From positions 1-52,285 of the forward strand of contig NZ_AYZC01000006.1 in the NCBI RefSeq assembly GCF_001436775.1: a DNA stretch of 52,285 nucleotides, read 5' to 3'. This stretch comes from Lactobacillus acetotolerans DSM 20749 = JCM 3825. Its GTDB lineage: Bacteria; Bacillota; Bacilli; Lactobacillales; Lactobacillaceae. This document shows positions 1-12,748 of the stretch, one piece after another; the stretch's first letter is position 1, and each line of letters opens with the position of its first letter. The notes beneath the pieces are model-generated. The model searched no databases. It worked only from the letters and a program-made list of their open reading frames with translations, and was not told where the DNA came from. The position numbers were made by a program, and so were the translations under genes.

Positions 1-98
1 CCTGCTAACAGCTTATCATATATAAACTATCAACAGGGAATATCATAGACCCAAAATAATTTCCAGATCCCTTTTACTGTGTAAATTAATAGCTTTAA

Positions 99-272
99 TT
101 AGCACCCAAGGGGAGCATAAAACATCGCAAATAATGCAAAACCATTACTTGTTCCTCTGCTTCGTATATCATCTACATATGAAATTGAATTAAAAATCTG
201 TATTACTCCCATAATAATTAATAGGACTGCAAAGCCCCGAACAAATTCATTACTACCAAGAAAACTCTTCAT
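99..272 (-). pseudogene. truncated copy of a small membrane protein
   Basis: This 57-codon reading frame begins MKSFLGSNEFVRGFAVLLII and is a clear relative of the 73-residue protein encoded just upstream at 398-619, sharing the FL-SN start, the IIQ-INSI segment and the RGT-NGFAL motif. Similarity stops after FYAPLG, where a TAA ends the frame; the relative continues with a second hydrophobic segment. The predicted product keeps only the first membrane helix (about residues 12-30). It may be a decaying duplicate or a short functional protein. The function of the family is not recognised. The truncation is seen in the sequence; the pseudogene status is inference. Confidence 0.5.
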
Positions 273-334
273 TATTTCACCTTTTTTATAAAAACATAAA
301 TAAGCTTATAACATTATGTTATTACTTCTAAGCC

Positions 335-378
335 AAAAGAAAAAGGATCCAAAAAATTATTTTAGACCCTTCTTCTTT
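335..378 (-). terminator. rho-independent terminator of the small membrane protein gene
   Basis: Read on the minus strand, AAGGGTC pairs with GATCCTT (one G-U pair), followed by a T-rich tract, directly downstream of the stop at 398. Confidence 0.5.
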
Positions 379-397
379 ATAAAATTAATTTTTCATT

Positions 398-619
398 CTA
401 CCTAAATCCACCTACAAGGACGTAAATACCACTAAAAATCAACACCATACCAAATATTGGAGCAAAAAACATTGGAATCAATGCAAAGCCATTGTTTGTT
501 CCTCGATGCAATATTCCTTTTATATAGGGAATTGAATTTATAATTTGAATTATTCCTAAAATAATTATTACGATACCAAAACCAGTATTAAATGCATTAC
601 TACTAAGAAATTTTTCCAT
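398..619 (-). CDS. small two-helix membrane protein, unknown function
   Basis: The 73-residue product starts MEKFLSSNAFNTGFGIV and has two predicted transmembrane segments (about residues 13-31 and 46-68) joined by a short loop with an RGTNNGFAL motif. A GGTGAG sequence lies 5 bases before the ATG as ribosome binding site. No domain is recognised. A truncated relative lies immediately downstream (99-272) in the same orientation, so the pair arose by tandem duplication. The two-helix layout would fit a small stress, holin-like or immunity-type membrane protein, but nothing in the sequence decides between these. Confidence 0.6.
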   Translation of the reverse strand: MEKFLSSNAFNTGFGIVIIILGIIQIINSIPYIKGILHRGTNNGFALIPMFFAPIFGMVLIFSGIYVLVGGFR

Positions 620-711
620 CGTTACTCACCATTTTCTGTAAAAATATAAATAGTTCTTACCAATATATTATTACTTTTATTTAGAAATACAATAAAAAAA
701 TCAAAAATTCA

Positions 712-2271
712 TTATTTTGATTTTAACTGCTTTAATTGTTTAGAAATATTTTGAATTTCTTTGATCGAAACATTCGGATCAGCCATTAATTTATCTAATT
801 TGAACTTTAATAATTCTATTTGATTTTCTTTATCAATATTTTTATTTTGATGCACATAAGAAGGCGTGAGCAGTTGCTGGTGGACAATTTCCCATTTTTT
901 AACATTAATATCAGAAATAAATTTCTTATCATGAGAAACAATAATAATAGCAAAAGGATAATCGTTAATAAAATTTTCTAAAGCTTCAATGGAACTTATA
1001 TCCAGGAAATTGGTTGGTTCATCCAACAAGATCAAGTTATATTTGCCAAGCAAAGTTTCAGCTAGATTAAAGCAGACTAATTGTCCGCCACTCAAAGTAG
1101 CAATTTTATCATTTATATGTTCCTTTAGATTCAAATCTCCTAAAGCCTGCATAGTTGAACTTCTATCAAACATTGTTGTTTTCATTATTGAAGAAATAAC
1201 TGTGCCTTCAGAAATTGAAGAAGCAACATTTTGATCAAAATAGCCAACCCGCAATTTTTTATTAAATATTCCTTCTATTTTTTGCTTATATAATTTTTTA
1301 AGAAAAACTGATTTTCCAACACCATTGTTACCAGTTAACAAAATTTTATCAGTGGCCTTAATTCCAAGTTCACGCGGAATCGTAAACAATTTTTTCTTAG
1401 CAATAGTTATTTCTTGTGCTGCAATTTTAACAAGACTACTATTTTTAGGAATTGTAATACTCGTTAAATTAGTAGTTATATTTTTTAAGGTTATTTTCTT
1501 ATGCGTTATCGGCTTAACTACTTTTTCGTTACTTATCCTTTTGGCCAAAATGTGACTTGTCTTTAACAAATTCTTTTCGGCGCGCTCACCATTCTTGGTT
1601 TTCCAATCAGAATATGACTTATGTTTACTCTTATTATGAGTTAACTTTTTAGCTGCTTTTCCCTGTTGAAGTTTTTGCGTACTTGCCTTTTTTAAACGAG
1701 CAATTCTATGTTGGTGCACATTAAAAGCAGCCTCTTCTTTTTGCTTTTTAGTTTGTTCAAACTTCTCATAATCAGAATATTTACCATTAAATTGGGTTAC
1801 TTTTTTATCTTTTATACACCAAATAGTATTCACAACAGAATTTAAAAAATCCCGATCATGACTTACTACTAAAAGTGAGATATCACGTGCGTTTAAAATA
1901 TTAATTAACCATTTTTGCTGATTTATATCTAAATTCGAGGTTGGCTCATCTAATAAAAGCAAACTGTTGGGTTCGCGCTTTAAATTATAAATTGCCTTAT
2001 CAATGGCTTGTCTTTCCCTTTCACCACCACTAATCCCTCCATAATCTAAAAGTTGGGGAACAAAAATAGTAGAACAATTTTTAACTATCTTGCCATGAGT
2101 CACATTTAAATTATTATTCTGATCAATAGCTTTCAGCAGAGTAGTTTTACCAACACCATTATTCCCAATTAAACCAATTTTTTCGTTAGTATTAATATTT
2201 AGTTCCGGAATATTAAATAGATCCCGATTACCAAAACTAATTTTAAAATTTATTATTTTAATGAGTTCCAT
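712..2271 (-). CDS. ABC-F family ATPase (Vga/Msr-like ribosome-associated)
   Basis: The protein of about 519 residues has two ABC ATPase domains and no membrane segment, which defines the ABC-F family; members bind the ribosomal E site and many relieve macrolide, lincosamide or streptogramin inhibition. The first domain has Walker A GNNGVGKTT (36-44), signature SGGERERQ and Walker B LLLLDEPTSNLD. The second has GNNGVGKSV, LSGGQ and LILLDEPTNFLD. A long basic linker (about residues 180-260, rich in Lys and Gln) joins them, and the C-terminal VKKWEI motif resembles Vga(A). I chose the ATG at 2271 because AGGAG lies 10 bases upstream; the GTG at 2280 abuts that site. A leader peptide and RBS hairpin precede it, suggesting inducible expression. 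Resistance itself is inference. Confidence 0.88.
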   Translation of the reverse strand: MELIKIINFKISFGNRDLFNIPELNINTNEKIGLIGNNGVGKTTLLKAIDQNNNLNVTHGKIVKNCSTIFVPQLLDYGGISGGERERQAIDKAIYNLKREPNSLLLLDEPTSNLDINQQKWLINILNARDISLLVVSHDRDFLNSVVNTIWCIKDKKVTQFNGKYSDYEKFEQTKKQKEEAAFNVHQHRIARLKKASTQKLQQGKAAKKLTHNKSKHKSYSDWKTKNGERAEKNLLKTSHILAKRISNEKVVKPITHKKITLKNITTNLTSITIPKNSSLVKIAAQEITIAKKKLFTIPRELGIKATDKILLTGNNGVGKSVFLKKLYKQKIEGIFNKKLRVGYFDQNVASSISEGTVISSIMKTTMFDRSSTMQALGDLNLKEHINDKIATLSGGQLVCFNLAETLLGKYNLILLDEPTNFLDISSIEALENFINDYPFAIIIVSHDKKFISDINVKKWEIVHQQLLTPSYVHQNKNIDKENQIELLKFKLDKLMADPNVSIKEIQNISKQLKQLKSK

Positions 2272-2274
2272 ACT

Positions 2275-2300
2275 AATCACTCTCCTAATTCTAAGTGATT
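2275..2300 (-). promoter_or_regulatory. hairpin enclosing the ABC-F ribosome binding site
   Basis: On the minus strand AATCACT (2300-2294) is a perfect 7-bp complement of AGTGATT (2281-2275). The 12-base loop holds the AGGAG ribosome binding site of the ABC-F gene, and the hairpin ends 3 bases before its ATG. Upstream, TTGCTCAT inside the leader peptide gene (2360-2353) is complementary to ATGAGCAA (2314-2307), giving a second 8-bp stem. The arrangement resembles translational attenuators of erm and some ABC-F genes. The pairing is seen; the switching is inference. Confidence 0.6.
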
Positions 2301-2322
2301 CAATATTTGCTCATTTGATTTT

Positions 2323-2409
2323 TCACCTTAAGTGGTACTTATGATTAAAACCATGAGCAATGAAAACAACTTTTCCATTTATCTGCAGTAATTTTTGTAA
2401 AGTCTTCAT
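2323..2409 (-). CDS. candidate 28-residue leader peptide of the ABC-F gene
   Basis: A short reading frame MKTLQKLLQINGKVVFIAHG..., ending in HKYHLR, is preceded by a perfect AGGAGG Shine-Dalgarno sequence 5 bases before the chosen ATG (a second ATG lies immediately upstream at 2412). It ends 51 bases before the ATG of the ABC-F ATPase. Its position, strong ribosome site and the complementary segments that link it to the downstream ribosome binding site are those of a leader peptide controlling an antibiotic-inducible gene by ribosome stalling. The central KVVFIAHG stretch is the natural place for a stall motif. No known leader peptide was matched from memory. Confidence 0.6.
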   Translation of the reverse strand: MKTLQKLLQINGKVVFIAHGFNHKYHLR

Positions 2410-2440
2410 CATTGCCTCCTGATTAACTAAATTTTTTTAA

Positions 2441-2484
2441 ATATCTATAAAATTCATTATTCACCTTTTAACTACGCAATTCAA
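2441..2484 (-). promoter_or_regulatory. possible promoter of the leader peptide/ABC-F unit
   Basis: On the minus strand TTGAAT and AATAAT are separated by 17 bases, about 30-60 bases upstream of the leader peptide start. The match is moderate. Confidence 0.3.
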
Positions 2485-2553
2485 TTTTATATACAAATTT
2501 TGATTTATATTCTATCCACGGTCAGATATTATATTTTTTTATAAAAATTTTGA

Positions 2554-2566
2554 TTGCATTATGCAA
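2554..2566. promoter_or_regulatory. 13-bp palindrome, possible operator
   Basis: TTGCAT-T-ATGCAA is a perfect inverted repeat in the otherwise featureless 2420-2650 stretch between the divergent ABC-F and nucleoside-uptake genes. It lies about 85 bp upstream of the plus-strand promoter. Regulator unknown. Confidence 0.3.
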
Positions 2567-2650
2567 GATACATACTTCTGTAAATCTCATCGTGTGTTCT
2601 AGACCAAATGAGAATCCTATTCTATCAATACTCTATCTTGTATGTTGCTT

Positions 2651-2679
2651 TTGACAGTACCACTAAATATTGTTAATCT
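2651..2679 (+). promoter_or_regulatory. promoter of the first BMP lipoprotein gene
   Basis: A consensus TTGACA is followed after 17 bases by TAATCT, ending 39 bases before the translation start at 2719. It fits a housekeeping sigma factor promoter. Confidence 0.65.
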
Positions 2680-2718
2680 CAGATCTGTTAAAGGAATTTT
2701 ATGGAGGAGTTCAAGTCA

Positions 2719-3810
2719 ATGAATACAAAAATAAAAAAGATATTATCAATTGGTGCAATTGCACTTAGTGTCGGGATAATGCTCACTGCATGTTCTGGGA
2801 AAAAGCAAGGTGGGAGTGGTAACAGTAGCAGCAATGCTAAACACTCAGTAGCTTTAATTACTGACGTTAGCGGAATTAATGATCACTCCTTTAACCAATC
2901 TGCCTGGACAGGTTTTAAAGCTTATGGTAAACAACACGATTTAAATCAGGGCCGCAATGGTTACCAATATTTCCAATCAAGTAGTGCCGCTGATTTTCAG
3001 CCTAACTTAGATGAAGCAGCCAAAGCCGGTTACCAGACAATTTTCGGCGTCGGCTATTCACTAAAGGATGCTGTCAGTGCTGCAGCTAAAAAGTACCCTA
3101 AGAAAAATTTTGCCATTATTGATGACAAAATTGACGGACAAAAGAATGTTGTTTCAGCTAATTTCAAAAGTGAACAGGCCGCATATTTAGCCGGAGTAGT
3201 AGCCACAAAAGAAACTAAAACTAATACGGTTGGTTTTATCGGTGGTACACACGGTGATATTATCGACCTTTTTGACGCTGGTTTTACTAAAGGTGTTAAA
3301 GATGAATCCAAAAAGTTACATAAGAAAGTAACCATCCTAAATCAATATGTAGGTAATTTCACCAGCGCTGATAAAGCTAAATCAATCGCCCAATCAATGT
3401 ACACTAAGAAAGCCGATATCATCTTCCATGCAGCTGGTGGTGCCGGTGATGGGCTCTTCCAAGAAGCCAAATCAATCAACCAAACTCGTCCTGCCAATAA
3501 AAAGGTTTGGGTAATCGGCGTCGACGTTGATCAATCTAATCTTGGTAATTATTCCGCAAAAGGCGGACAAAAATCGAACTTTGTTTTAACTTCCGTAATT
3601 ACTGGTGTAAATGTCGCAACGCAAGATATCGCCAACCGTGCTTATAAAGGAAAGTTTCCGGGTGGTGAGCACCTCGTTTACGGCTTAAGAGGCAATGGCG
3701 TTTCTATTAAACACGGACAAATTACCCCTGCCGCTTGGAAAGATGCACAAACAGCTAGAGACCAAATTTTAAGTAATAGAATTAAAATTCCAACCCACCC
3801 TAATAAATAG
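2719..3810 (+). CDS. BMP family nucleoside-binding lipoprotein (copy 1)
   Basis: The 363-residue product is the extracellular substrate-binding lipoprotein of a nucleoside ABC importer (BMP/BmpA family, related to B. subtilis BmpA/YufN and treponemal PnrA). A lipoprotein signal with lipobox LTAC puts the lipidated cysteine at residue 25, followed by a Gly/Ser/Asn-rich tether. Family landmarks are DVSGINDHSFNQSAW, YFQSSSAADF, GVGYSLKDAV and VWVIGVDVDQS. I start at the ATG at 2719, since GGAGGAG is correctly spaced for it; an in-frame ATG at 2701 lies ahead of that site. A close paralog follows, then the ATPase and two permeases. Nucleosides are the likely ligands from family knowledge; the exact ligand cannot be read from the sequence. 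Confidence 0.88.
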   Translation: MNTKIKKILSIGAIALSVGIMLTACSGKKQGGSGNSSSNAKHSVALITDVSGINDHSFNQSAWTGFKAYGKQHDLNQGRNGYQYFQSSSAADFQPNLDEAAKAGYQTIFGVGYSLKDAVSAAAKKYPKKNFAIIDDKIDGQKNVVSANFKSEQAAYLAGVVATKETKTNTVGFIGGTHGDIIDLFDAGFTKGVKDESKKLHKKVTILNQYVGNFTSADKAKSIAQSMYTKKADIIFHAAGGAGDGLFQEAKSINQTRPANKKVWVIGVDVDQSNLGNYSAKGGQKSNFVLTSVITGVNVATQDIANRAYKGKFPGGEHLVYGLRGNGVSIKHGQITPAAWKDAQTARDQILSNRIKIPTHPNK

Positions 3811-3934
3811 TTCGTAATATACTTAACTAATTATCTTTTATTTCATATAAAAATAATATTATTGGATTTACACGTATATTAATGATAATATTTGTATTGA
3901 TTATTCGTATTATTTGTGTGGAGGATAAAAGATA

Positions 3935-5017
3935 ATGAACAAAAAGTTCAAGAAGTTATTGTCTTTAGGTATTGTTTTAGCGTCTCTCGGGTTGATCCTA
4001 ACTGCTTGTTCAGGCAAAAAAGAGGGCAATGCTGGAAGTAAAAATAGTAAACATGATATTGCCTTAATTACTGATTCTAACGGTGTTGATGACCACTCGT
4101 TTAATCAAGCTGCTTGGGAAGGATTTAAATCATACGGTCAAGAACATGATCTGAAAAAGGGTAAGGATTACCAATACTTTCAATCAAGCAGTGCCGCTGA
4201 TTACACCCCAAACTTTGATCAGGCTGCCAAAGCCGGCTACCAAACTATTTTTGGTGTTGGTTACATGCTGACTGATTCAGTTAAAGCCGCTGCGAAGAAA
4301 AATCCTAAGAAAAACTTCGTAATTGTTGATGATGTAATCAAAGGACAAAAGAATGTTGCTTCCGCAACCTTCATGAGTAACCAAGCCTCCTACCTTGCCG
4401 GTTTAGCTGCTGCTTATACTACCAAAACTAACAAAGTTGGTTTTGTCGGTGGTGCCAAATCTTCAATCATTAACTTATTCGAGGCCGGATTTAAACAAGG
4501 TGTCCGTGATGGCGCTAAAGCATTACATAAGAAAGTTTCCGTTTCTACCCAATATATTGGCAACTTCACCTCAACTGATAAAGCTAAGTCAATTGCACAA
4601 TCAATGTACGCTGACAAAGCCGATATCATTTATCAGGCTGCCGGTAATGCAGGAAATGGTATTTTCCAAGAAGCTAAAGACTATAACCAAACCCGTCTTG
4701 CTAACAAAAAAGTTTGGGTAATTGGTGTTGACGTTGACCAACAAAGCTTGGGTAACTATAAAGCTAAGAATGGTAAGAAATCTAACTTTACTTTGACCTC
4801 TGTTCTAAAAGGTTTAAATGTTGCTACCAAATCAATTTCTGACAAAGCTTACGACAATAAATTCCCTGGTGGTAAACACATCGTTTACACCTTAAAGGAT
4901 AACGGTGTATCTGTTACCAAAGGTAATCTAGATTCTAGGACCTGGTCAGCTATTCAAAAAGCCCGTAAACAAATTATTGCAGGCAAGATTAAGGTTGCTA
5001 CTACACCATCCAAATAG
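3935..5017 (+). CDS. BMP family nucleoside-binding lipoprotein (copy 2)
   Basis: This 360-residue tandem paralog of the preceding protein has lipobox LTAC (Cys25), then DSNGVDDHSFNQAAW, YFQSSSAADY, GVGYMLTDSV and VWVIGVDVDQQ. GGAGG lies 12 bases before the ATG. The two copies diverge mostly in surface segments and in the tether, consistent with duplication to widen ligand range or dosage. A 124-bp gap separates them, and a strong terminator after this gene lies before the transporter ATPase, so the lipoprotein may be made in excess over the membrane parts. Substrate-binding function is family-based. Confidence 0.88.
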   Translation: MNKKFKKLLSLGIVLASLGLILTACSGKKEGNAGSKNSKHDIALITDSNGVDDHSFNQAAWEGFKSYGQEHDLKKGKDYQYFQSSSAADYTPNFDQAAKAGYQTIFGVGYMLTDSVKAAAKKNPKKNFVIVDDVIKGQKNVASATFMSNQASYLAGLAAAYTTKTNKVGFVGGAKSSIINLFEAGFKQGVRDGAKALHKKVSVSTQYIGNFTSTDKAKSIAQSMYADKADIIYQAAGNAGNGIFQEAKDYNQTRLANKKVWVIGVDVDQQSLGNYKAKNGKKSNFTLTSVLKGLNVATKSISDKAYDNKFPGGKHIVYTLKDNGVSVTKGNLDSRTWSAIQKARKQIIAGKIKVATTPSK

Positions 5018-5032
5018 TGCAAGTAACATTTC

Positions 5033-5066
5033 AAGAACTCTTCGTTTTACACGAAGAGTTCTTTTA
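5033..5066 (+). terminator. terminator between lipoprotein and ATPase genes
   Basis: A perfect 12-bp stem (5033-5044 with 5052-5063) with a 7-base loop and a T tract sits only 25 bases before the ATPase start. It probably acts as a partial terminator, setting the ratio of binding protein to transporter. Confidence 0.8.
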
Positions 5067-5090
5067 TCAAAAGGAAGATCATGATCAATT

Positions 5091-6629
5091 ATGGAAAAAG
5101 AGACTAAAAATATAATTGAGATGCGCCATATTGTTAAAGACTTTAACGGTTTTAAAGCCAATAACAATATCAACCTCACGCTCCAAAAGGGTGAAATCCT
5201 GGCGCTTCTCGGTGAAAATGGCGCGGGGAAATCGACTTTAATGCGCATATTATCCGGGCTACTCGAGCCAACTGCCGGAGAGATTTATGTCCGCGGTAAA
5301 AAAGTCGACATTAAAGATCCTACAGTGGCTAAAAATTTAGGAATTGGTATGGTCCACCAGCATTTTATGTTAATGGAATCATTTACCGTGTTAGAAAATA
5401 TTATTTTGGGCCATGAGAGTACGAAGGGACCAATATTAGACTTAAAAAAGGCAGCAAAACAAGTGTCTGCCTTAGCTAAGCGTTACGGATTAACCCTTGA
5501 CCTCAACGCAAGAGTTGCGGATATTACGGTAGCACAACAACAAAAAGTAGAAATTTTAAAAGTATTATACCGTGGGGCAGATATTCTTATCTTTGATGAA
5601 CCAACTGCCGTATTAACCCCGCAGGAAGTTACTGAATTCATTAAAATCTTGAAAGGTTTAGCAAAAGAAGGCAAATCTATCATCTTAATTACCCACAAAT
5701 TAGAAGAAATTAAAGAGGCAGCCGATCGGGTAATAGTCATTCGTGCCGGTAAAAGTGTCGGCACCTTTGATGTGGCAGCAGTTAGTGATGATCGGTTAGC
5801 TGAATTAATGGTTGGCCGCCATGTTAATATGACCCTCACCAAACCCCAAGTTAAGGCAGGTAAAGAAATCTTAAACGTAAAAGATTTACACGTTAAAGAT
5901 AACCGCGGCATCATGGCAGTCAAAGGATTATCTTTTGCTATTCACGCCGGTGAAATATTAGGGTTAGCCGGAATTGACGGTAATGGTCAAGATGAATTGG
6001 TGGAAGCAATTACCGGTTTACGGCACGTTACTTCTGGTTCGGTAATAATTAATAATAAAGATATGACTAACCAAAAGGTACGTAAAATTACTGAGGCTGG
6101 TGTTGCCCACATCCCTGCCGACCGGCAAAAGTATGGTTTGATTTTACAATTCCCCTTAGCCGATAATTTGGCCTTGCAAACATATTACAGGCCACCACTT
6201 TCTAAACACGCAATTATTAACCATAAGGCTATTCATGAACACGCTGAAAAATTAATTAAACAATTTGATATCAGAACAACTAGTGCCACACTTCTTGCAA
6301 GTGATTTATCTGGAGGTAACCAACAAAAAGCGATTATCGCTCGCGAATTAGACCTCAAGAGTGATTTAATCATCGCTTTTCAACCAACTCGTGGCCTCGA
6401 TGTCGGTGCGATCGAATATATCCATAAACAGCTACTTGCTCAGCGCTCTGCTGGAAAAGCCATTCTGCTTATTTCTTATGAATTAGACGAAATTATGCAA
6501 TTATCTGACCGCATCGTTGTTCTTCATGATGGGCAAGCCTCTGGCGAGGTTAAGCCTGAAGAAACAAGCAACAAAGAATTAGGCCTGCTAATGACCGGAG
6601 CAAAGACAGAAGGTACAAATCATGATTAA
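5091..6629 (+). CDS. nucleoside ABC transporter, double ATPase subunit
   Basis: The 512-residue protein has two fused ABC ATPase domains of the sugar/nucleoside (RbsA-like) type and powers uptake with the two permeases that follow; it corresponds to B. subtilis NupO/YufO. The first domain has Walker A GENGAGKST (41-49), a degenerate signature ITVAQQQK and Walker B ILIFDEPTAVL. The second has a degenerate Walker A GIDGNGQDE, signature LSGGNQQK and IIAFQPTRGLD. One active and one degenerate site is normal for this subfamily. AAGGA lies 15 bases upstream of the ATG, a slightly long spacing. The stop overlaps the next start, so expression with the permeases is coupled. Confidence 0.9.
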   Translation: MEKETKNIIEMRHIVKDFNGFKANNNINLTLQKGEILALLGENGAGKSTLMRILSGLLEPTAGEIYVRGKKVDIKDPTVAKNLGIGMVHQHFMLMESFTVLENIILGHESTKGPILDLKKAAKQVSALAKRYGLTLDLNARVADITVAQQQKVEILKVLYRGADILIFDEPTAVLTPQEVTEFIKILKGLAKEGKSIILITHKLEEIKEAADRVIVIRAGKSVGTFDVAAVSDDRLAELMVGRHVNMTLTKPQVKAGKEILNVKDLHVKDNRGIMAVKGLSFAIHAGEILGLAGIDGNGQDELVEAITGLRHVTSGSVIINNKDMTNQKVRKITEAGVAHIPADRQKYGLILQFPLADNLALQTYYRPPLSKHAIINHKAIHEHAEKLIKQFDIRTTSATLLASDLSGGNQQKAIIARELDLKSDLIIAFQPTRGLDVGAIEYIHKQLLAQRSAGKAILLISYELDEIMQLSDRIVVLHDGQASGEVKPEETSNKELGLLMTGAKTEGTNHD

Positions 6630-7773
6630 AGTTAGTCCAAAAATAAAACGGATCCTGGTACCAATTATTTCTATTATTGCTGGATTCTTAGTTGGTGCGA
6701 TCATTATGCTTATCTGGAATTACAACCCAATCCAGGCTTATTCATCCATGTTTGCGAGTGCCTTAGGAAACATGAACGGAATTGGTGAAACTATTCGGGA
6801 AGCCAGTCCACTTATTTTTACAGCAATTGGCTTTGCCATCGCTTCAAAAGCTGGTTTCTTTAATATTGGCCTGCCGGGGCAAGCACAAGCTGGCTGGTTA
6901 ACTTCAATTTGGATTGTTTTAGCTTATCCTAATATGCCTAAAATAATCTTATTGCCCTTGGCAATTATTGTGGGGACCATTGCCGGTGCTTTAGTTGCAG
7001 GAGTTGCAGGTTACTTGCGAGCACAATTTGGTACAAATGAGGTAATCACAACCATCATGCTCAACTACATCGTGCTTTATACCTGCCAATACCTTATGCA
7101 GCAGGTTATGTCACCTAATTTGCGAATCGATACAGACACAACCAAAAATATCTCGAGTAATGGCAGTTTAAAAATTAACTGGTTAACCAATATGTTTGGC
7201 GGATCTCGAATCAATGCCGGTATTTTCTTAGCTTTGGTTGCTATCATTATTTACTGGTTTTTGATGAAGAAAACAACAATGGGTTTTGAAATCAAATCCG
7301 TTGGTGCAAACCCATTTGCCAGCCGTTACGCCGGAATGTCCTCCAAGAAAAATATTATTCTTTCAATGTTACTATCCGGGAGTTTTGCCGGATTAGGCGG
7401 TGTTGTGCAAGGATTAGGAACTTACCAAAACTACTTCACGCAAACTACGAGCTTAGACATAGGCTGGGATGGTTTATCCGTTGCTTTACTTGGCGGTAGT
7501 ACCACTATCGGCATTTTACTGGCTGCCATTTTATTCTCCATTTTAAAAATCGGTGGGTTAGGGATGCAGACAATTGCCGGTATTCCCTATGAAATTGTTT
7601 CCATAGTTATCGCCGCAATTATCTTCTTTGTCGCAATTAGTTACGTCATCGGCTTGTTATTTAAGACGAAAGATAAGAAAAATAATTACCAACAACCGCA
7701 AAGAAAAGAACGTGGGCCCAATAATGGCATAGATGGCTCTAATATCGAAGTTGGTAAGAAAGGACAAATTTAA
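6622..7773 (+). CDS. nucleoside ABC transporter permease (first subunit)
   Basis: This 383-residue integral membrane protein of the BPD_transp_2 family resembles B. subtilis NupP/YufP. About nine hydrophobic segments are visible, starting with residues 9-30. A conserved IGFAIASKAGFFNIGLPGQ segment and a VGANPFASRYAGM loop, which would contact the ATPase, identify the branched-chain/nucleoside permease type. A hydrophilic tail of about 30 residues ends the protein (KDKKNNYQQPQRKERG...). It overlaps the ATPase gene by 8 bases and the next gene starts on its last base, so translation is coupled throughout. Confidence 0.9.
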   Translation: MIKVSPKIKRILVPIISIIAGFLVGAIIMLIWNYNPIQAYSSMFASALGNMNGIGETIREASPLIFTAIGFAIASKAGFFNIGLPGQAQAGWLTSIWIVLAYPNMPKIILLPLAIIVGTIAGALVAGVAGYLRAQFGTNEVITTIMLNYIVLYTCQYLMQQVMSPNLRIDTDTTKNISSNGSLKINWLTNMFGGSRINAGIFLALVAIIIYWFLMKKTTMGFEIKSVGANPFASRYAGMSSKKNIILSMLLSGSFAGLGGVVQGLGTYQNYFTQTTSLDIGWDGLSVALLGGSTTIGILLAAILFSILKIGGLGMQTIAGIPYEIVSIVIAAIIFFVAISYVIGLLFKTKDKKNNYQQPQRKERGPNNGIDGSNIEVGKKGQI

Positions 7774-8729
7774 TGAATATTGTTACTACGTTGGCACTGA
7801 TTGTGTCATCAACTTTTGTCTACTCTGCACCGCTAATTCTTACTGCACTTGGCGGCGTATACAGTGAAAATTCTGGGATTGTTAACATCGGTCTTGAAGG
7901 GATCATGACCATGGGTGCTTTCTCATCCATCGTCTTCAACTTAACCTTCGCTTCTACATTTGGTAAAGCTACCCCATGGATCGGAGCATTGGTTGGCGGT
8001 ATTTGTGGACTAACCTTCTCGCTTTTGCACGCTGTAGCTACGATTAACTTTCATGCTAACCACGTTATCAGTGGTACCGTGCTCAACTTAATGGCCCCAC
8101 CACTCGGCGTCTTCTTAATTAAGGCAATTTATGATAAGGGCCAAACTGAAAATATTACCCAAAACTTTGGCTACTTTACCATTCCTGGTTTAGCCAACAT
8201 CCCTATAATTGGGCCAATTTTCTTTAAAAATACGTCGGCTCCTGCCTGGTGCGCAATCCTTATTTCCATCCTATTATGGTGGGTTTTATATAAGACCCGT
8301 TTCGGCCTACGCCTAAGATCCTGTGGTGAAAATCCACAGGCAGCCGATACGATGGGCATCCACGTTTACGCTATGCGTTACGCAGGTATACTTATCTCCG
8401 GCTTCATGGGTGGCCTTGGAGGCGCAGTCTTTGCGGAAGCAATTTCTGGCAACTTCTCAGTTTCTACCATCGTAGGGCAAGGATTCATGGCATTAGCCGC
8501 CGTTATCTTCGGCAAGTGGAACCCGTTAGGTGCAATGTGGGCCTCCTTATTCTTTGGTTTTGCTCAAAGTCTAAGTATTATTGGAAACCAACTGCCTCTT
8601 ATTTCTAAAATTCCATCTGTTTATATGCAGATTGCACCATACGTGATCACAGTTGTTGTCTTGGTTCTTTTCTTCGGTAAATCTGTAGCTCCTGCTGCCG
8701 ATGGGGTTAACTACATTAAATCCAAATAA
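7773..8729 (+). CDS. nucleoside ABC transporter permease (second subunit)
   Basis: The 318-residue partner permease resembles B. subtilis NupQ/YufQ. Eight or nine transmembrane segments are visible. The NSGIVNIGLEGIMTMGAF segment and the SCGENPQAADTMGI loop, which faces the ATPase, are typical. The start ATG shares its A with the previous stop (TAATG), and GAAAGGA lies upstream in the preceding coding end. It closes the importer operon; a strong terminator follows at 8750. Confidence 0.9.
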   Translation: MNIVTTLALIVSSTFVYSAPLILTALGGVYSENSGIVNIGLEGIMTMGAFSSIVFNLTFASTFGKATPWIGALVGGICGLTFSLLHAVATINFHANHVISGTVLNLMAPPLGVFLIKAIYDKGQTENITQNFGYFTIPGLANIPIIGPIFFKNTSAPAWCAILISILLWWVLYKTRFGLRLRSCGENPQAADTMGIHVYAMRYAGILISGFMGGLGGAVFAEAISGNFSVSTIVGQGFMALAAVIFGKWNPLGAMWASLFFGFAQSLSIIGNQLPLISKIPSVYMQIAPYVITVVVLVLFFGKSVAPAADGVNYIKSK

Positions 8730-8749
8730 CTTATTTCAAAGCAAAATAA

Positions 8750-8785
8750 AATTGCCTCTTCTTTTCACGAAGAGGCGATTTTTTA
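8750..8785 (+). terminator. terminator of the nucleoside importer operon
   Basis: AATTGCCTCTTC pairs with GAAGAGGCGATT over 12 positions with one G-U pair and is followed by TTTTTT. Confidence 0.85.
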
Positions 8786-8870
8786 TCTAAAAAAGTTACA
8801 CACATATCAACATATTTATCCACAACATATTGATAATATTTAAAATTATTTTCTATATCTTGTATTACGG

Positions 8871-9698
8871 CTAAATCGTATCCAATGATTGTTTCTCAGT
8901 TGGTTGTGGGAAGTCCGCATTAATCAACCGCAATTCATCTTCTGTCAATTTAATGTCCTGTGCCGCGATATTGTCCTTCATATGGCTAACCTTACCTGCT
9001 TTAGAAAGAACCAAAATACGGCCGCTTCTCATTGCCCATGCAAGCATTATTTGGTGAACTGTAGCATCATGATCACGAGCAACCACCTTTAAATTCTGGG
9101 TAACTCGAATAGAATCACCATTGCCAGAATTAAATGGAGAATAACCAATAAAACGGACACCGTGTTTTTGTTGCCATGGAAAAAGATCATACTCGACACC
9201 ACGGTGATCTAGGTTATACAAATCCTCATTGACAAAACATTCTTTGCCGCCCGGCACCGTAAACAATTCTTTCATATCCGGTGTGTCAAAGTTAGAAACA
9301 CCCCATTTACGAATCAGGCCTTCTTTTTGCAAAGCTTGCAAGCCTCTAACCGTATCTGATAAACGGTGATTACCACGCCAGTGCAATAAGTATAGATCTA
9401 GATAATCAATTCCTAACCTTTTAAGGCTGGCTTCTAGGCTCTTACGCTCAAGTTCTGGTGTTGCATGATAAGGATAAAATTTTGAAATTAAGTATATCTT
9501 ACTTCGATCATAACCCTTCATGGCTTCGCCAACGAGCTTCTCACTCTTACCTTCACCATACATTTCTGCGGTATCAATCACGTTAATCCCGTTATCTAAG
9601 CCATAGTGAAGTGCCGCGATCTCATCATTTTTTTTCTTAGGATCTTCACCAATATTCCAAGTTCCAATCCCGAGTCCAGTTAATTTAGCAAAACTCAT
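8871..9698 (-). CDS. aldo/keto reductase
   Basis: The 275-residue cytoplasmic oxidoreductase has a TIM-barrel aldo/keto reductase fold and reduces carbonyls with NAD(P)H. The catalytic tetrad is visible: Asp and Tyr in DTAEMYGEGKSEK, Lys in YLISKFYP and His in LYLLHWRG. The later KWGVSNF and QIMLAWAM segments fit the family. TAGGAG lies 12 bases before the ATG. The gene stands alone and is divergent from nagB. The physiological substrate is not readable from the sequence. Confidence 0.88.
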   Translation of the reverse strand: MSFAKLTGLGIGTWNIGEDPKKKNDEIAALHYGLDNGINVIDTAEMYGEGKSEKLVGEAMKGYDRSKIYLISKFYPYHATPELERKSLEASLKRLGIDYLDLYLLHWRGNHRLSDTVRGLQALQKEGLIRKWGVSNFDTPDMKELFTVPGGKECFVNEDLYNLDHRGVEYDLFPWQQKHGVRFIGYSPFNSGNGDSIRVTQNLKVVARDHDATVHQIMLAWAMRSGRILVLSKAGKVSHMKDNIAAQDIKLTEDELRLINADFPQPTEKQSLDTI

Positions 9699-9760
9699 AT
9701 CTATTTCACACTCCTACCTAAATTTTAGCGCATAAATACAATAATTTCTTTTTTTATTAG

Positions 9761-9790
9761 TTGACAAATTGGAATATACCAATTTATAAT
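9761..9790 (+). promoter_or_regulatory. nagB promoter with GntR/NagR-type operator in the spacer
   Basis: TTGACA (9761-9766) and TATAAT (9785-9790) are both consensus. The 18-base spacer AATTGGAATATACCAATT (9767-9784) is an inverted repeat with AATTGG/CCAATT arms. This matches the style of operators bound by HutC-type GntR regulators such as NagR/YvoA, which respond to amino-sugar phosphates. Binding here would block RNA polymerase. The sites are seen; the regulator is inferred and is not encoded in this window. Confidence 0.75.
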
Positions 9791-9825
9791 ATGCTTAACA
9801 AGTAAATGAGGAGGAGTCATTCATT

Positions 9826-10551
9826 ATGAAAATCATTGTTAAAGAAAACGATATCGAAGGCGGCGCAGCTGCATTCAAAATTTTTGAAAAAGGCATCAAG
9901 AATGGTGCTAAAGTTTTAGGTTTAGCTACCGGTTCAACCCCTGTTACACTTTACCAAAACTGGGTAAAGAGTGACCTTAATTGCGATAATCTTACTAGTA
10001 TCAACCTTGATGAATATGTAGGTTTAAAACCAGATAATCCTCAAAGTTACCACTACTTTATGCAAAAGCACTTGTTTGACAAGAAGCCATTCAAGAAGTC
10101 ATATGTTCCCGATGGTCTTGAAGCTGCCAAAGATCCACAAGCAGCAGCTGATCACTATAACCAAATTATCAAAGACAACCCAATCGATATCCAACTTTTA
10201 GGTATCGGAAGAAATGGTCATATTGCCTTTAACGAACCTGGTTCATCATTTGACACTGTTACCCGTGAAGTTAAGTTAACTGACAACACCATTAAGGCTA
10301 ACTCACGTTTCTTCGACAACATTGATGAAGTTCCAAAATCAGCAATTTGTATGGGAATTGCCAACATTATGTCAGCAAAGAAGGTTGTTTTGATGGCATT
10401 CGGCAAGAACAAAGCTCATGCTATTAAAGAAATGATCGAAGGTCCAGTTACTGAACAAGTACCTGCTTCAATCCTACAAAAGCATTTAGATGTAGTTGTA
10501 ATCATTGATAAGGCTGCCGCATCAGAATTAGACGACAAATATAAGAAATAA
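9826..10551 (+). CDS. nagB: glucosamine-6-phosphate deaminase
   Basis: The 241-residue enzyme converts glucosamine-6-phosphate to fructose-6-phosphate and ammonia, feeding amino sugars into glycolysis. LGLATGSTP near the N-terminus, the NLDEYVGL active-site motif and [16 protein letters not shown] are diagnostic. It is the short allosterically simple form usual in Firmicutes, compared with about 266 residues in E. coli. GAGGAGGAG lies 9 bases before the ATG. The gene is monocistronic with its own operator-containing promoter and a strong terminator. Confidence 0.95.
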
Positions 10552-10580
10552 AATAAACTTAAGACAGATTAATGAATCCA

Positions 10581-10617
10581 AAAAACTGAGGTGAACCACG
10601 TATTCACCTCAGTTTTA
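10581..10617. terminator. bidirectional terminator between nagB and the SLAP gene
   Basis: A perfect stem of about 14 bp (AAAACTGAGGTGAA with its complement) with a 7-base loop is flanked by T tracts on both strands, serving two convergent genes. Confidence 0.85.
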
Positions 10618-10651
10618 TTTTTGCCTTAAATTAAAATTATTTACTTACATA

Positions 10652-12748
10652 TTATTTTTTAGAAGCTGAATAAAGCTTCTTGCTACGAACACTAGGCTTT
10701 ACATCAGCGGCTCTCACAGCATAACCATCGGTATCAGCAAATATGCTCCTCAAAGTTTCTGCAAAATAATACCTACCATTCACTTTAACTATCTTGGGAT
10801 CACCTATAGACATAACCTGACCCTTCTTAAATTTAGAGTCTGGGTGCAGGTTGATTTCTCCATACGGATCTTCAAGGTAATCATATGTGTTAACTTTAGC
10901 AGTTACATCCATAGCCCTTGAATTCTTAGTGAAGCTCTTAGAAATTCGATCAAGTTCTGCTTTATATTTCTTATATCTTGGACTCTTTGCAAAGTTATCT
11001 CGTTTAACGTTTTGAGCCGGAACGTAGTAAACCTTTTTCTCGGCAACTAAGAAATAATACTTACCTTTTATCTTTACTACCGGGTTTACATAGTATCCGA
11101 TATTATCGCCCTTCTTCAAAGTTGTCTTAGACGGGGCAAGTTTAACTTTATTAACATTCATATAAATATTAGGATTTTGCTTGGTGACATCTCTGTATAC
11201 TTTAGTATTACGTTTTGCCACTAAAACGGTCTTACTTTGATCGTAATTAATCAGCTTATTGTATTTACGTAAAGTTGCATCCTTCTTTAGGTCTTCCGGA
11301 TATAAAGAACTCTCGTTGTCGGTTTTTGACTTTTTTCTAGCTGGCTCAGGAGCCTGCGTTGCATAATCTGCAATATTTAAAGTGTGTTGAACATTGTCAT
11401 CATCAAAACTAATTAGCTTAGTATTATGGTTGACGAAGGTTGCCCAATCACCGGTGGCAGCACTGACTAGCTCTTCAATTTTGGTAGCTTCCCGATTAGT
11501 TATCTTATTTAAATAAGTTACCTGAACCTTAGCTCCATTTAATGATTTTGCGGCTTTATCCAAAAGCCAAGCGGCCTGCTTAACCTCTGCAATACTTGCT
11601 TTACTTGAGGCATTAGTCTGCTTAGCGGCATCCAAGGCCTGATCGTAACTCACCCTTAAATACGATTCAGAAAGTTTATAAGGATCGCCTGCTTTAACCG
11701 TTTGTTCATCATTAATTAAAGACTGCAATTCTTTTTTATCATCTGAACTAGCGGTAATAGCACCTGCTTCAGCTTCTTTTTCAGTATTTACCGGTTTTAA
11801 TTTTACATCGTTATCAACGTCAACATCAGAGGCTTTAACAAAACCTTCACCGATATATTCATCTTTTTTAATAGAATTAACGTAACTCTTCACGTTCGGC
11901 AGATGGTAGAATAATTCAGATTTTTGCTCATCCGGTAACCAAATATAGAGCAGCTCATCGGCAGTGGCCTCTGCACCCTTTGTGGTGGTCCTATAAGGAT
12001 GATCCTTCTTTGTGCCGTTAATAGTATAAACATCGGCATCCTTATTAAAAATCAGTTGCGCCTTTGTTGGAGACTTAAAATCAGTGACTTCAAGATTTTG
12101 TCTGGGTGTGACATTATACTCATAATCGGCTTCACCGCCATAAATATATTCGTCTTTGCCAGCAATTTTATAATAAAACTGCGTGTCGATATCTTCTTCT
12201 TCGACCGATACAAGCTTATCAACCGCAACTTTTTGCCCTTTTTTGACAACATCATCATTTTCATTCATATCAGAATCATAGGTATGAGAGTCATTCTTAC
12301 CGGTAACATAAGTCGTTCCCCGATAATACATTGTTTCACCATCAATCGAGCCAATATTATCTGCTCTAATATAAGCATTCTTACCCACGCGATAGTAATC
12401 ATGACCATTAATGTTCTTATACGGCAACCAATAGTAGGTGTTCCCACTTTGGGGAGTATATTTAGCAAAATAATGCTTCTTCAATTCGGTTGTTTGCTCC
12501 GGATTACCCATGTACTTAACCTTTTTGCCTTTGGCAACAAAGGTATTTCTCTTGCTTCCTTTGTAAGTTTTCAGCCGCTTGCCATTCTTACCATAAAAAT
12601 AAGAATTGTAATTCAAGGTAAGCATCCCTTTAGAGGAAGTTTTTGCAGCCTGAACAGTTGCATTAGAGCTTCCCATAAAAGCCACTGTCGGAATAATTAG
12701 TAACAGCATAGCAATCATGGTTATAACTGTTTTTTTACTTGATTTCAT
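10652..12748 (-). CDS. secreted surface protein with SLAP (S-layer type) domains
   Basis: The 698-residue protein has a signal peptide (MKSSKKTVITMIAMLLLIIP..., cleavage likely after ATVQA near residue 35). It then carries repeated SLAP-type modules, recognisable by an LTLNYNSYFYGKNGKRL-like start and a hydrophobic GKYYFL/GHDYYRV core before a YIRADN/YVPAQNV-like end. Roughly three modules lie in the first 300 residues and two in the last 190. Between them is a charged, Ala/Lys-rich helical region (about 320-420) that may form a coiled coil. SLAP modules attach S-layer proteins non-covalently to the cell wall. GAGGTG lies 7 bases before the ATG at 12748; an in-frame TTG at 12763 precedes that site. 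It is probably an S-layer-associated protein rather than the main S-layer subunit. Confidence 0.8.
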   Translation of the reverse strand: MKSSKKTVITMIAMLLLIIPTVAFMGSSNATVQAAKTSSKGMLTLNYNSYFYGKNGKRLKTYKGSKRNTFVAKGKKVKYMGNPEQTTELKKHYFAKYTPQSGNTYYWLPYKNINGHDYYRVGKNAYIRADNIGSIDGETMYYRGTTYVTGKNDSHTYDSDMNENDDVVKKGQKVAVDKLVSVEEEDIDTQFYYKIAGKDEYIYGGEADYEYNVTPRQNLEVTDFKSPTKAQLIFNKDADVYTINGTKKDHPYRTTTKGAEATADELLYIWLPDEQKSELFYHLPNVKSYVNSIKKDEYIGEGFVKASDVDVDNDVKLKPVNTEKEAEAGAITASSDDKKELQSLINDEQTVKAGDPYKLSESYLRVSYDQALDAAKQTNASSKASIAEVKQAAWLLDKAAKSLNGAKVQVTYLNKITNREATKIEELVSAATGDWATFVNHNTKLISFDDDNVQHTLNIADYATQAPEPARKKSKTDNESSLYPEDLKKDATLRKYNKLINYDQSKTVLVAKRNTKVYRDVTKQNPNIYMNVNKVKLAPSKTTLKKGDNIGYYVNPVVKIKGKYYFLVAEKKVYYVPAQNVKRDNFAKSPRYKKYKAELDRISKSFTKNSRAMDVTAKVNTYDYLEDPYGEINLHPDSKFKKGQVMSIGDPKIVKVNGRYYFAETLRSIFADTDGYAVRAADVKPSVRSKKLYSASKK

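Follow-up and report, generated by a model that had tools for sequence, protein, structure and literature searches.

The ABC-F ATPase gene at 712-2271 (minus strand) of the window, i.e. of the whole 52,285-nucleotide stretch from Lactobacillus acetotolerans DSM 20749 = JCM 3825 (NZ_AYZC01000006.1) that was analysed, is preceded by a 28-codon leader frame and by a set of RNA segments that can pair in competing ways, and fold modelling and comparison with related genes make it fairly probable that these elements constitute a divergent, terminator-less, cis-acting translational attenuator of the gene, with drugs that stall ribosomes early on the leader as the most likely trigger. A switch of this kind is well known, and the long leader and the lack of a terminator are the features that distinguish the variant. 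If this reading is true, the regulation of ABC-F genes in the family consists of clade-specific designs, namely 3-codon uORFs that are mostly combined with a terminator, 8-codon uORFs, and long terminator-less leaders that switch the ribosome binding site (RBS). It would then permit a comparison, within a single genus, of how a drug-sensing leader is replaced while the protected gene persists, and it would predict which antibiotics induce the intrinsic ABC-F genes of harmless lactobacilli.

The gene product is Vga/Msr/Lmo0919-like and comprises 519 amino acids when read from the ATG at 2271, or 519-522 depending on the start; the alternative GTG at 2280 lies too near to the Shine-Dalgarno (SD) sequence. 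Both ATPase sites are intact in the translation (site 1 GNNGVGKTT/SGGE/LLLLDEP, site 2 GNNGVGKSV/LSGGQ/LILLDEP), a site being taken as intact when it has Walker A, the signature, and Walker B with the catalytic Glu. The NCBIfam model of ribosomal-protection ABC-F proteins (NF000355) gives 341.7 bits, which is below its curated cut-off of 380, and the Vga and Msr models give 278-303 bits, far under their own cut-offs. Ribosome protection is a presumed function of this protein. Among solved chains, Listeria Lmo0919/VgaL is the closest to it, a protein that gives protection from pleuromutilins, lincosamides and streptogramin A (PMC10201436). The best relatives in the genus are 43-50% identical and the best plasmid match 42%, and a search for a close homologue in plasmids, viral contigs and one scan of genome contigs found none, the genome contigs yielding remote matches only.

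The leader (2323-2409, minus strand) has the 28 codons MKTLQKLLQINGKVVFIAHGFNHKYHLR and a TGA at 2325-2323, and 51 nt separate this stop codon from the ABC-F ATG. Its own SD, a perfect AGGAGG at 2415-2420 (minus strand), is 5 nt from the ATG at 2409, which opens the frame with normal spacing, while an in-frame alternative ATG at 2412 is merely 2 nt away. In the genome (1.58 Mb), the pattern AGGAGGN(4-6)ATG occurs 29 times versus 15 times for the reversed control pattern, and arithmetic from the control rate gives a chance expectation of about 0.001 for an AGGAGG with start spacing on the right strand within the 180 nt upstream of the gene. Judged by its sequence, the leader looks translated. 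No homologue of the leader DNA turned up in plasmids or among 75 genomes of the genus, where the searches gave short chance matches or none. An earlier note on this DNA had recognized no familiar leader in the peptide, and the macrolide +X+ motif (R/K-X-R/K) is absent from it. Further upstream, TTGAAT-17-AATAAT at 2456-2484 (minus strand) is a candidate promoter, of a type whose site count is not above chance. A 6-codon frame, MNFIDI (2437-2457, minus strand), with a AAAGGTGA site on its 5' side, stops 16 nt short of the SD of the leader and could be a second, upstream uORF; it conflicts with the promoter candidate (2484-2456).

At the ABC-F start, AATCACT (2300-2294) and AGTGATT (2281-2275) of the minus strand form a perfect 7-bp stem with the SD AGGAG (2286-2282) in its 12-nt loop, an arrangement found in 41 of 4000 shuffles (~1% by chance). 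An exact 8-bp complement joins the leader to the spacer (TTGCTCAT, 2360-2353, with ATGAGCAA, 2314-2307), which on its own is weak evidence, because 103 of 1000 shuffles (~10%) yield one of at least 8 bp. The earlier note had pointed out the frame with its AGGAGG, the hairpin and this separate complement, and all of them lie on the minus strand as it described. Two extra helices, which the note had not mentioned, exist, one between GCAATGA (2415-2409, over the leader start) and TCATTGC (2363-2357, codons 16-18), the other between the spacer AATGAG (2315-2310) and CTCATT inside the ABC-F gene (2265-2260), and together with the 8-bp complement they make up a 1:2 / 2:3 / 3:4 set. Segment 1 (GCAAUGA, 2409-2415) is the partner of segment 2 in the modelled ribosome-free state (P 0.94), segment 2 (UCAUUGCUCAU, 2353-2363, leader codons 16-19) has either segment 1 or segment 3 as partner, and segment 3 (AAUGAGCAA, 2307-2315, in the spacer) is predicted to pair with segment 2 (2360-2353) under early stalls and otherwise with the CUCAUU of the gene, all on the minus strand. 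The RBS-sequestering structure (2260-2306, minus strand), as derived from the fold model and the sequence, contains the helices AUAUU (2306-2302)/AGUAU (2274-2270) and AAUCACU/AGUGAUU; its inner hairpin has 12 bp with a bulge, and its base helix is closed by the CUCAUU of the gene. An Rfam scan of positions 1-12000 gave no family. The terminator scan found no intrinsic terminator between the uORF and the ABC-F gene, and a transcription attenuator of the vmlR/cplR kind was rejected on this ground.

In the fold model, the switch was assessed by the free energy needed to hold the region from SD to AUG single-stranded, with a ribosome masking -14 to +16 at each leader codon. The known switch of the ermC control was reproduced, with an opening cost of 11.1 kcal/mol in the free RNA that dropped to ~2.3 at codons 8-16, and a second ermC locus with a different leader sequence (L076) was open already when free (2.1-2.3 kcal/mol). 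The ribosome-free ABC-F start costs 11.4 kcal/mol, which is high but not unique as it ranks fourth among 27 window genes, and its RBS is predicted to be sequestered when the leader carries no ribosome, as is typical of erm systems. (The most folded start among the 27, at 16.6 kcal/mol, belongs to the second gene of a tandem pair that encodes BMP-type lipoproteins, 3935-5017, plus strand.) Stalls at codons 1-12 are modelled to lower the cost to 9.0-9.9 kcal/mol, with P(2:3) of ~0.8 and P(3:4 base) of ~0.01-0.09, except for codon 10 with 0.26 and 0.66, respectively. At codons 13-27, P(2:3) is 0, P(3:4 base) is 0.78-0.95, and the cost is 10.1-12.9 kcal/mol; at codon 28 and the stop it falls again to 9.8-9.9 kcal/mol because the ribosome itself masks segment 3. 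The earlier note had proposed a fold with the ribosome parked on codons 8-18; in the model, the RBS is released at codons 1-12 and not across 8-18, since a ribosome at 13-18 leaves it closed. The early-late difference amounts to 1.7 kcal/mol with longer and 2.9 kcal/mol with shorter context, and the latter was reached in 2 of 200 shuffles, a frequency that is optimistic because the early/late split was picked after inspection of the window results. The inner hairpin, which carries the SD loop, remains closed wherever the ribosome stalls, and 2:3 pairing frees the base helix alone; therefore the modelled relief of ~2-3 kcal/mol is much smaller than the ~9 kcal/mol of the ermC control. The predicted switch is hence modest, consistent with attenuation but weaker than that of ermC.

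Mechanistically, ribosomes would pass through codons 13-27 in the absence of drug, or segment 1 would pair with segment 2, and segment 3 would be left free to close the base of the hairpin that buries the SD and the AUG of the ABC-F gene. If a drug kept ribosomes on the first twelve or so codons of the leader, these would cover segment 1 and let segment 2 pair with segment 3, the RBS hairpin would open at its base, and translation of the ABC-F protein would rise. From the model we infer this direction of switching, and the likely inducers would be drugs whose arrest of the ribosome comes shortly after initiation, such as pleuromutilins, lincosamides and streptogramin A, the classes from which Lmo0919/VgaL, as closest solved relative, protects. 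An arrest right after initiation would act with little demand on the leader sequence, as has been argued for the early-acting drugs in case of vmlR and cplR (PMC9226507, PMC10201436), whereas an arrest at codons 13-20, for example at a macrolide motif near VVFIAH, would work in the opposite direction.

The ermC/ErmCL system shares with this arrangement the leader with a strong SD, the 1:2, 2:3 and 3:4 segments, the RBS buried in 3:4 and, according to the model, the stall-dependent 2:3 pairing, but it differs in gene, peptide and extent of relief, and the modelled induction window is at codons 1-12 here versus around codons 8-16 in ermC. The genes vmlR (MIN), cplR (MR[I/M]), lsaA (MAGN) and lmo0919 resemble the window in having a uORF before an ABC-F gene of the same superfamily, and an SD-sequestering hairpin has been reported for vmlR and cplR as well (PMC9226507, PMC10201436). 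However, the uORFs of vmlR, cplR and lsaA have 3-4 codons, as opposed to 28, and vmlR and cplR also act via an intrinsic terminator, which the window lacks. The msrD leader MsrDL (MYLIFM) likewise precedes an ABC-F gene, but there macrolides cause arrest at the stop codon and the outcome is transcription attenuation (PMC10314930).

The best independent support for a switching of the RBS by ribosome position in this ABC-F branch comes from the sister clade L002-L007, with which the window protein groups in the tree (support 94/92). The leaders of this clade (MRIQLTSKQAMEIA, MRSLLVNQNAMEIA, MRILLTNDEAMAIARG) have 14-16 codons and peptides without detectable similarity to the window leader, and they end at segment 2 or two codons later, whereas the window leader runs 10 codons past it. 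The terminator scan gave no proper terminator for the sister leaders or the window leader, and in both cases segment 3 has two alternative partners, late codons of the leader and the start region of the ABC-F gene; the topology is the same as in the window, with other sequences. In the sister clade, up to 14 bp of complementarity link segment 3 to the ABC-F start region (UAGUUAUGGAAUUU), and it pairs alternatively, and exclusively, with the last leader codons. The fold model predicts a strong switch, stronger than in the window, for five of the six members. For L003-L007, which have 14-codon leaders, early stalls give 7.4-10.4 kcal/mol versus 13.1-16.1 for late ones, and the early/late difference was reached by none of 103 shuffles for L004 and none of 126 for L007. 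L002, the nearest relative of the window, has a weak switch of 1.2 kcal/mol, which 7 of 65 shuffles reach. The sister clade retains both competing pairings, with covariation of the sort that the earlier note had proposed to look for in related genomes. The 2:3 helix has five pairs changed on both sides (alignment A1; 0 of 500 shuffles) and is 91.7% paired compared with 37-56% in slid controls, but the 3:4 anti-start helix, with 94.8% of cells paired mainly via G-U/A-U exchanges, is not above the shuffle control (168 of 500) and is little varied because it is partly coding. A lenient terminator scan picked up weak hairpin/T-run candidates (-8 to -13.5 kcal/mol) in L002, L003, L004 and L006, which lie inside the leader hairpin itself and have no proper U-tract, and no candidate in L005 and L007.

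Nearly every related ABC-F gene in the genus has a uORF in the same place upstream, and its type tracks the ABC-F clade in the tree: apart from the sister-clade leaders, there are 3-codon uORFs (M[EK]N, MRN or MRI) and 8-codon uORFs that are MSRxVNNQ-like. Most of the checked relatives with 3-codon uORFs have an intrinsic terminator shortly 5' of the gene. The window branch has a longer leader and no terminator, while the leader of most relatives has 3 codons and in many cases is combined with a terminator. These leader-controlled relatives, together with the two competing pairings of the sister clade, back the suggestion of the earlier note that the architecture is that of an attenuator.

What alternatives exist for the proposed attenuator? 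It is rather unlikely, yet conceivable, that the leader, although translated, is all that remains of the attenuator of the clade after decay and has little strength, in which case the hairpin would hold ABC-F expression constitutively low and stalling would matter little. Such a decay would fit the small modelled relief, the inner hairpin that never opens, and the extension of the leader beyond segment 2, where the sister leaders stop at once or two codons on. However, the frame and the strong SD are preserved, as is every pairing segment, and the early/late contrast exceeds that of 198 of 200 shuffles. There is a slim chance that the hairpin works without a leader, be it for constitutive low expression or for temperature sensing, and that the short frame arose by chance or encodes an unrelated small protein. 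In AT-rich DNA, a frame of 28 codons is nothing unusual, and the 8-bp complement is no rarity among shuffles, but a perfect and well-spaced AGGAGG is hardly expected by chance at this position, and the related ABC-F genes have their uORFs at the same place.

An ermC-like arrest in the middle of the leader, with a macrolide or another tunnel-binding drug stalling the ribosome at a motif such as VVFIAH, is very improbable. A long leader could house a motif for arrest, and VFIA bears a loose resemblance, and no more than that, to motifs of the IFVI type in Erm leaders; against this, a P-site at codons 13-20 would mask segment 2 and keep the RBS closed according to the model, the leader has no R/K-X-R/K motif, and Lmo0919/VgaL confers protection against pleuromutilins, lincosamides and streptogramin A (PMC10201436). 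One may speculate, with little probability, that a Lactobacillus-type ABC-F clade swapped the 3-codon uORF and terminator that many relatives have for attenuators that act on translation alone and whose long leaders evolve fast, and that the window peptide is a novel arrest sequence adapted to a compound of the niche, which could be a lanthipeptide or some other product of bacteria; such an inducer is suggested because related ABC-F genes occur in lanthipeptide operons.

Some further arrangements were seen among the relatives. Many ABC-F genes of Lactobacillaceae (L044-L066) share the block CGAGGTATT...ATGCG(C/T)AACTAA, which encodes the uORF MRN, and a terminator, and this looks like a conserved attenuator family. 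Tandem short uORFs, the second of which is very near the ABC-F start, are present in L017 (MSIKSTNR, then MKTETYAK) and L036 (MSRIVVNR, then MKTEAGINQIS). In L078 (1-4530; L. helsingborgensis plasmid pIBH002-1), a related ABC-F gene is in an operon with genes for a lantibiotic dehydratase, LanC and an ABC transporter, and in L016 a LanC-like reading frame precedes the ABC-F gene. Upstream of these two ABC-F genes, which lie 3' of LanC-like genes, no uORF was found, and their products possibly serve self-protection in a lanthipeptide cluster.
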